Source of the DNA: Minisyncoccota bacterium
GTDB lineage: Bacteria; Patescibacteriota; Minisyncoccia; Phycocordibacterales; Zambryskibacteraceae
Assembly (NCBI GenBank): GCA_025450175.1
Contig: JANWHY010000004.1
Span: forward strand, 1 to 39,450
DNA: 39,450 nucleotides
Direction: 5' to 3'
Shown here: one piece after another, positions 7,906 through 8,021 of the stretch
Layout: each line of letters begins with the position of its first letter
Numbering within the stretch: position 1 is the first letter of the stretch
The notes under the pieces: model-generated
What the model was told of the DNA's origin: nothing
Databases searched by the model: none
Seen by the model: only the letters and a program-made list of their open reading frames with translations
Position numbers and translations under genes: made by a program

Positions 7906-7934
7906 TTGTTCAAATATAAAAAATAGCGTATAAT
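7906..7934 (+). promoter_or_regulatory. promoter of the initiator tRNA gene
   Basis: TTGTTC at 7906-7911 and TATAAT at 7929-7934, separated by 17 bases, the cleanest two-box promoter in this region. The tRNA starts 16 bases after the -10 box. Confidence 0.65.
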
Positions 7935-7950: not shown

Positions 7951-8021
7951 AGCGGGTTGGAGGAGCAGTACCTCGGCAGGCTCATAACCTGCAGGCATCC
8001 GTGCAAATCGGGTACCCGCAA
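7951..8021 (+). tRNA. initiator tRNA-fMet (CAU), unusual
   Basis: Cloverleaf: acceptor AGCGGGT / ACCCGCA with an A1.A72 mismatch, D stem GAGG/CCTC with a seven-base loop AGCAGTA, anticodon stem GCAGG/CCTGC around CTCATAA, four-base variable loop AGGC, T stem ATCCG/CGGGT with loop TGCAAAT. The 1:72 mismatch, the A11:U24 pair and the G30G31:C39C40 pairs mark it as initiator, not elongator. CCA is not encoded. Odd points: position 55 is G instead of the almost universal U, G18 appears to be replaced by A, and the first of the three G:C pairs of the anticodon stem is A29:U41. Length 71 against the usual 74 without CCA. Confidence 0.88.

Follow-up and report, generated by a model that had tools for sequence, protein, structure and literature searches.

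The DNA window analysed here, a stretch of 39,450 nucleotides, is contig 4 of a 442-kb, 12-contig patescibacterial (Parcubacteria-like) genome that is 96% complete. At 7951-8021 it carries a complete tRNA cloverleaf with a CAU anticodon, on which direct reading, ARAGORN and Rfam RF00005 (46.2 bits, E 6.9e-07) agree (Table 1). Segmented, the gene reads AGCGGGT TG GAGG AGCAGTA CCTC G GCAGG CTCATAA CCTGC AGGC ATCCG TGCAAAT CGGGT ACCCGCA A, and by direct reading every stem position is paired apart from A1.A72. All cloverleaf features listed in an earlier sequence-only reading of this DNA (A1.A72, A11:U24, G30G31:C39C40, A29:U41, A18, G19, G55 and C56) are present. Its assignment of the gene to a real initiator tRNA also holds, given the intact cloverleaf, the conservation of the gene in the family and its standing as the sole initiator found. 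Two initiator hallmarks are a purine11:pyrimidine24 pair, here A11:U24, and the absence of a Watson-Crick pair at 1:72. The third, three G:C pairs at 29:41, 30:40 and 31:39, is incomplete, as 30:40 and 31:39 are G:C and 29:41 is A:U; G:C at 29:41 is a soft criterion, because natural initiators are known to vary there. The canonical elbow contact of G18 with U55 or Psi55 is lacking, its place being taken by A18 and G55, while G19:C56, U54:A58 and a purine at 57 are all retained. Upstream of the possible -10 box, TTGTTC at 7906-7911 makes a poor -35 element.

Table 1. Features of the initiator tRNA gene and its neighbourhood, in window coordinates.
Feature	Position	Strand	Basis
TATAAT, possible -10 box, 17 bases 5' of the gene	7929..7934	+	Read directly, not listed by the consensus scan; weak evidence
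Initiator tRNA-fMet(CAU) gene, 71 nt up to discriminator A73, CCA not encoded	7951..8021	+	Sequence, ARAGORN, Rfam
A1, faces A72; acceptor stem left open at 1:72, a mark of initiators	7951..7951	+	Sequence; A.A in 23/23 family members
D loop AGCAGTA, 7 bases; A18 = 7967, G19 = 7968	7964..7970	+	Sequence, Rfam; length as in most G18 loops of relatives
A18 in place of G18, partner of G55	7967..7967	+	Strict covariation with 55
Anticodon arm GCAGG-CTCATAA-CCTGC, G30G31:C39C40 and A29:U41	7976..7992	+	Sequence, order alignment
T loop TGCAAAT; G55 8003, C56 8004, A57 8005, A58 8006	8002..8008	+	Sequence, Rfam, order alignment
G55 in place of the TruB target U55	8003..8003	+	Sequence, order comparison
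A72	8020..8020	+	Sequence; family comparison
Elongator-type tRNA(CAU), G18 and C55	8068..8138	+	ARAGORN, Rfam, genome tRNA set

The genome yields 42 tRNA matches, just two of which have a CAU anticodon. A second standard initiator gene, which the sequence-only reading had named as a sign of a decayed copy or an assembly error, was looked for and not found among the 42 tRNA matches of this 96%-complete genome. The other CAU gene, of elongator type, has an A31.G39 mismatch in its anticodon stem; its C55 recurs in tRNA-Gly(TCC). U55 is kept in 37 of the 42 tRNAs. Two further tRNAs of the genome have A18/G55: tRNA-Ala(GGC), with a TGC T loop and the same D loop as the initiator (AGCAGTA), and tRNA-His(GTG) (G000:C8:38589-38659, minus strand; L041), whose loops were read by eye and which ARAGORN missed. 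In tRNA-His(GTG), the D loop is AGCAGCA (A18) and the T loop GGCAGCA (G54, G55, C56, A57, G58), U54:A58 being replaced too.

Positions 18 and 55 in the family and order

Near-identical tRNAs occur in named relatives (Candidatus Zambryskibacteria and other Parcubacteria). A search pattern that left positions 18 and 55 free matched in 23 of 31 genomes of the family, with eight genomes giving no match, and all 23 recovered initiators combine A18/G55 with A1.A72, the outcome that the sequence-only reading had proposed to look for in relatives. Across these 23 initiators, changes in the D, anticodon and T stems are compensated. In the order, 86 of 297 genomes matched this pattern, which fixes G9 and therefore misses initiators with A9. 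Taken together, the family and order samples comprise 103 genomes, 70 with A18/G55, 33 with G18/U55 and none mixed (Fisher p about 1e-27, kinship ignored), which bears out the earlier claim of a joint change at the two positions of the 18-55 contact. D loops have seven bases in all A18/G55 and most G18/U55 initiators, an equality that makes the alignment of position 18 unambiguous; the seven-base loop of the present gene likewise matches the AGTGGTA loops of relatives base for base and leaves no ambiguity as to its position 18.

A decayed copy, a misassembly or a mis-aligned D loop could be suspected from the Rfam score of the gene (46.2 bits), which lies below those of the other tRNAs of the window. 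However, the same state recurs in 23 family genomes with compensated stems, D-loop length is equal in both states, and the genome has two CAU tRNAs only; the probability of such an artefact is very small. The A18.G55 initiator instead looks like a working natural alternative, and not like a broken gene.

The two other departures from usual initiators singled out by the sequence-only reading, A.A at 1:72 and A29:U41, are indeed present; their supposed peculiarity dissolves in the comparison. A29:U41 occurs in 68 of 73 distinct initiator sequences of the order and A1.A72 is one of several 1:72 states among relatives, and by this alignment both are usual for the lineage.

Both states, A18/G55 and G18/U55, are found within four families of the order. 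A tree of 73 RpoB domains requires at least 12 changes of the 18/55 state, four of them forced by well-supported branches; as many branches of the tree are weak, 12 is an estimate and four the firm minimum. (In three genomes of family f57, G286, G233 and G154, a single open frame of about 2300 aa appears to combine rpoB and rpoC.) Ranked by APC-corrected mutual information over 73 distinct sequences, 18-55 comes fourth, behind the helix pairs 27-43, 28-42 and 13-22. Position 57 covaries as well, with A57 in 45 of 47 G55 sequences vs 6 of 26 U55 sequences. The coupling extends to an elongator, tRNA-Ala(GGC), which across the order shows 7 A/G, 25 G/U and 10 G/C combinations at 18/55 and no mixed one. 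In a phylum-wide sample of 380 genomes, A18/G55 initiators were confined to this order and to families f115 and f98, the remaining matches being G18/U55.

Positions 18 and 55 in other bacteria and viruses

In a wider survey, initiator-like genes were picked by G55 alone, with position 18 left free. Among these G55 genes, A18 was found in 82 of 88 on genome contigs and in 85 of 93 on viral contigs, and three or more of the other viral genes prove to have A18 on inspection. Other tRNAs on the G55-selected contigs comprise 57 A/G, 684 G/U and no A/U combinations, shares that, coming from selected contigs, do not represent a frequency. The exceptions with G18/G55 are L081 (Chthoniobacter), L180 (a Clostridiales MAG) and L142, which has a poor cloverleaf; the genome of L081 carries a normal initiator copy besides the G18/G55 one. 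Since a few G55 tRNAs keep G18, A18 is evidently not absolutely required with G55. Genomes of other phyla that have an A18/G55 initiator-like gene mostly carry a normal initiator too; a Prevotella MAG has the A18/G55 gene only, and this MAG may be incomplete.

Among cultured phages, both states occur within one subfamily, with A18/G55 in Brevundimonas phage Kikimora and G18/U55 in the Caulobacter phages CcrSC and CcrColossus. On the phage contig L237 (IMGVR_UViG_3300033233_000006), some twelve tRNAs spread over many isotypes have A18/G55, and similar tRNA arrays are present at the Verrucomicrobia loci L065, L128, L170 and L171. In an unselected viral scan, 94 of 95 initiator-like tRNAs were G18/U55 and none was A18/G55. 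The variant is hence a small minority in viruses, and we see no grounds for a phage origin of the gene in the window.

As read from tRNA genes, these comparisons show that positions 18 and 55 change jointly, almost never singly, and have done so repeatedly, in initiators and elongators and in Patescibacteria and phages alike. By the same comparative evidence, A18.G55 has repeatedly taken the place of the elbow pair G18.Psi55 through compensating changes, and it reflects neither decay nor an assembly error.

Elbow closure, TruB and formylation

The preferred interpretation, which we consider very probable, is that the gene encodes a functional initiator, with no other recovered from the genome, in which the elbow is closed by A18.G55 in place of G18.Psi55 while G19:C56 and U54:A58 are kept. 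In the standard elbow, base 18 intercalates between bases 57 and 58 and forms a single-bond pair with Psi55 (PMC4810234, PMC7912444). Base 18 would still be intercalated between 57 and 58 and paired with base 55 in the A18.G55 elbow. The turn at G55 could resemble that of a GNRA loop, with G55 N1/N2 contacting the phosphate and thereby replacing the N3-H contact of U or Psi. The sugar edge of G55 that is exposed in this way would best suit an adenine, which could dock with its Hoogsteen edge in a sheared-type A.G pair that a guanine at position 18 would be unable to form; such a geometry would explain the near-absence of G18 with G55. A single N6-O6 hydrogen bond is an alternative geometry. 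The tRNA would be charged, formylated, given its unpaired 1:72 end and the presence of Fmt, and used normally in the P site without Psi55. Mutations of 18-55 in P-site tRNA-fMet reportedly slow translocation strongly (Pan et al. 2006, cited in PMC8431766), so that A18/G55 may come at some cost.

Alternatively, positions 18 and 55 might not pair at all, A18 being an unspecific purine lodged between bases 57 and 58; a shared history and no contact would then link the two changes. The Steinberg laboratory is said to have made suppressor tRNAs in which the position 18 site holds an unspecific purine, which would fit this alternative, as would the natural G18/G55 tRNAs. However, it sits poorly with the concerted change in at least 12 switches, the lack of mixed states among 103 genomes, and the recurrence of the same coupling in a second tRNA species, tRNA-Ala(GGC), and in phages, and we rate it as unlikely.

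With G55 instead of U55, Psi55 cannot form in this initiator, as the sequence-only reading had stated. Nor does its genome have a match to the TruB family (PF01509), so that neither element that would mark a TruB substrate, U55 in the tRNA and TruB in the genome, is present. TruB-family matches are likewise absent from 13 of the 17 genomes of the genus, a count that includes this genome. Family relatives have at most a weak match, which is the only one in 15 of 31 family genomes; one such match proved, when its whole sequence was read, to be a divergent paralogue of 250 aa that carries GRLDP and scores below the TruB cut-off, whereas a canonical TruB from another family of the order carries GHAGTLDP. 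Divergent paralogues of this kind (GRLDP, 250-262 aa; L304:455-1204, L305:1281-2069 and L307:288-1040) are common in the order, at times beside a canonical TruB, and two that were scanned gave no match to a Pfam C-terminal domain.

These absences, soft as such calls are in MAGs, could suggest that A18/G55 follows the loss of TruB, the standard pair being weaker without Psi55 and selection favouring the modification-free A18.G55. Such a scenario draws on the missing match in the genome itself and in most of its genus, and on family relatives that have at most a weak match. Yet canonical TruB (E <= 1e-30) occurs in 11 of 47 A18/G55 vs 12 of 33 G18/U55 genomes of the order outside family f1 (p 0.22), 37 of the 42 tRNAs in this TruB-less genome keep U55, and most genomes of other phyla with the A18/G55 gene also carry a normal initiator. 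A causal role of TruB loss is improbable: by these counts, G55 is consistent with the absence of TruB without being accounted for by it.

A changed initiation system, at which the sequence-only reading had hinted, finds no support. In such a system, initiation factors, the ribosome or mRNA leaders would have co-evolved with the altered initiator elbow, and the A18/G55 initiator in every recovered family member and the leaderless starts claimed by that reading could be taken as signs of it. However, relative G127 combines a G18/U55 initiator with an A18/G55 tRNA-Ala, which places the 18/55 state with each tRNA and not with each genome. The same pair occurs in elongators and phage tRNAs, the RpoB tree calls for 12 or more changes of state within the order, and the domains of both Def and Fmt are present, making an altered initiation system highly improbable. 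Peptide deformylase and methionyl-tRNA formyltransferase are fused in one protein of 422 aa (G000:C11; L318:469-1734, plus strand), and with this Def-Fmt fusion present, initiation with formyl-Met is probably intact. An unpaired 1:72 end such as A1.A72 is accepted by Fmt. The compact Fmt part of the fusion does not reach the TIGR00460 cut-off; its NxH and D motifs are kept.

Among tRNA modifications, Psi55 is described in reviews as the one conserved most universally (PMC7912444), and this near-universality has left almost no natural variation from which to learn about the 18-55 contact. A lineage whose sole initiator switches between A18.G55 and G18.U55 offers a clean natural experiment on the role of the contact in folding, TruB dependence and P-site translocation. 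We see about an even chance for the wider proposition that nature closes the elbow in a third, fully functional way, with A18.G55 besides G18.U55 and G18.C55. Such a closure would have arisen many times, in tRNAs of cells and of phages, would do without both Psi55 and Gm18, and might change the dynamics of the P-site tRNA; 18-55 would in that case be a covarying pair rather than an invariant one. A search confined to the open full-text literature turned up no account of natural tRNAs that carry A18/G55; natural A18/G55 is thus likely novel, priority not being proven. There is also a practical side, as tRNA finders score A18/G55 genes low or miss them, which affects the annotation of Patescibacteria and phages.

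Comparison with known systems

The elbow described here shares with the canonical one G19:C56, the T-loop motif of U54, C56, purine 57 and A58, and a purine at position 18 that is capable of intercalation; it differs in having G55 and A18 where reviews call Psi55 universally conserved (PMC4810234, PMC7912444). Natural departures from G18/Psi55 are likewise found in tRNA-Pyl and in mitochondrial tRNAs with altered D and T loops, and tRNA-Pyl of Desulfitobacterium uses G13-C55 (PMC7609411). In those tRNAs the entire D/T contact, with G19:C56 as part of it, is lost or rebuilt; in the present initiator 18-55 alone is replaced and the rest is kept.

Standard bacterial tRNA-fMet and the present initiator have in common the unpaired 1:72 end, A11:U24, G30G31:C39C40, the CAU anticodon, G19:C56, U54 and A58. 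They differ in A1.A72 vs C1.A72, A29:U41 vs G:C, and A18.G55 vs G18.Psi55, and the seven-base D loop and four-base variable loop are also unlike standard tRNA-fMet. Initiator tRNAs of Mycoplasma and others have fewer GC pairs or another 1:72 pair and so resemble the present gene in their natural variation at 29:41 and 1:72; we know of no replacement of 18-55 in these initiators. The cell-wall tRNA-Gly of Staphylococcus, which has G55, has lost the D-loop GG and avoids EF-Tu, is alike in that its T loop opens with U54-G55-C56. Unlike that tRNA, the one described here keeps G19 and is the sole initiator of its genome.
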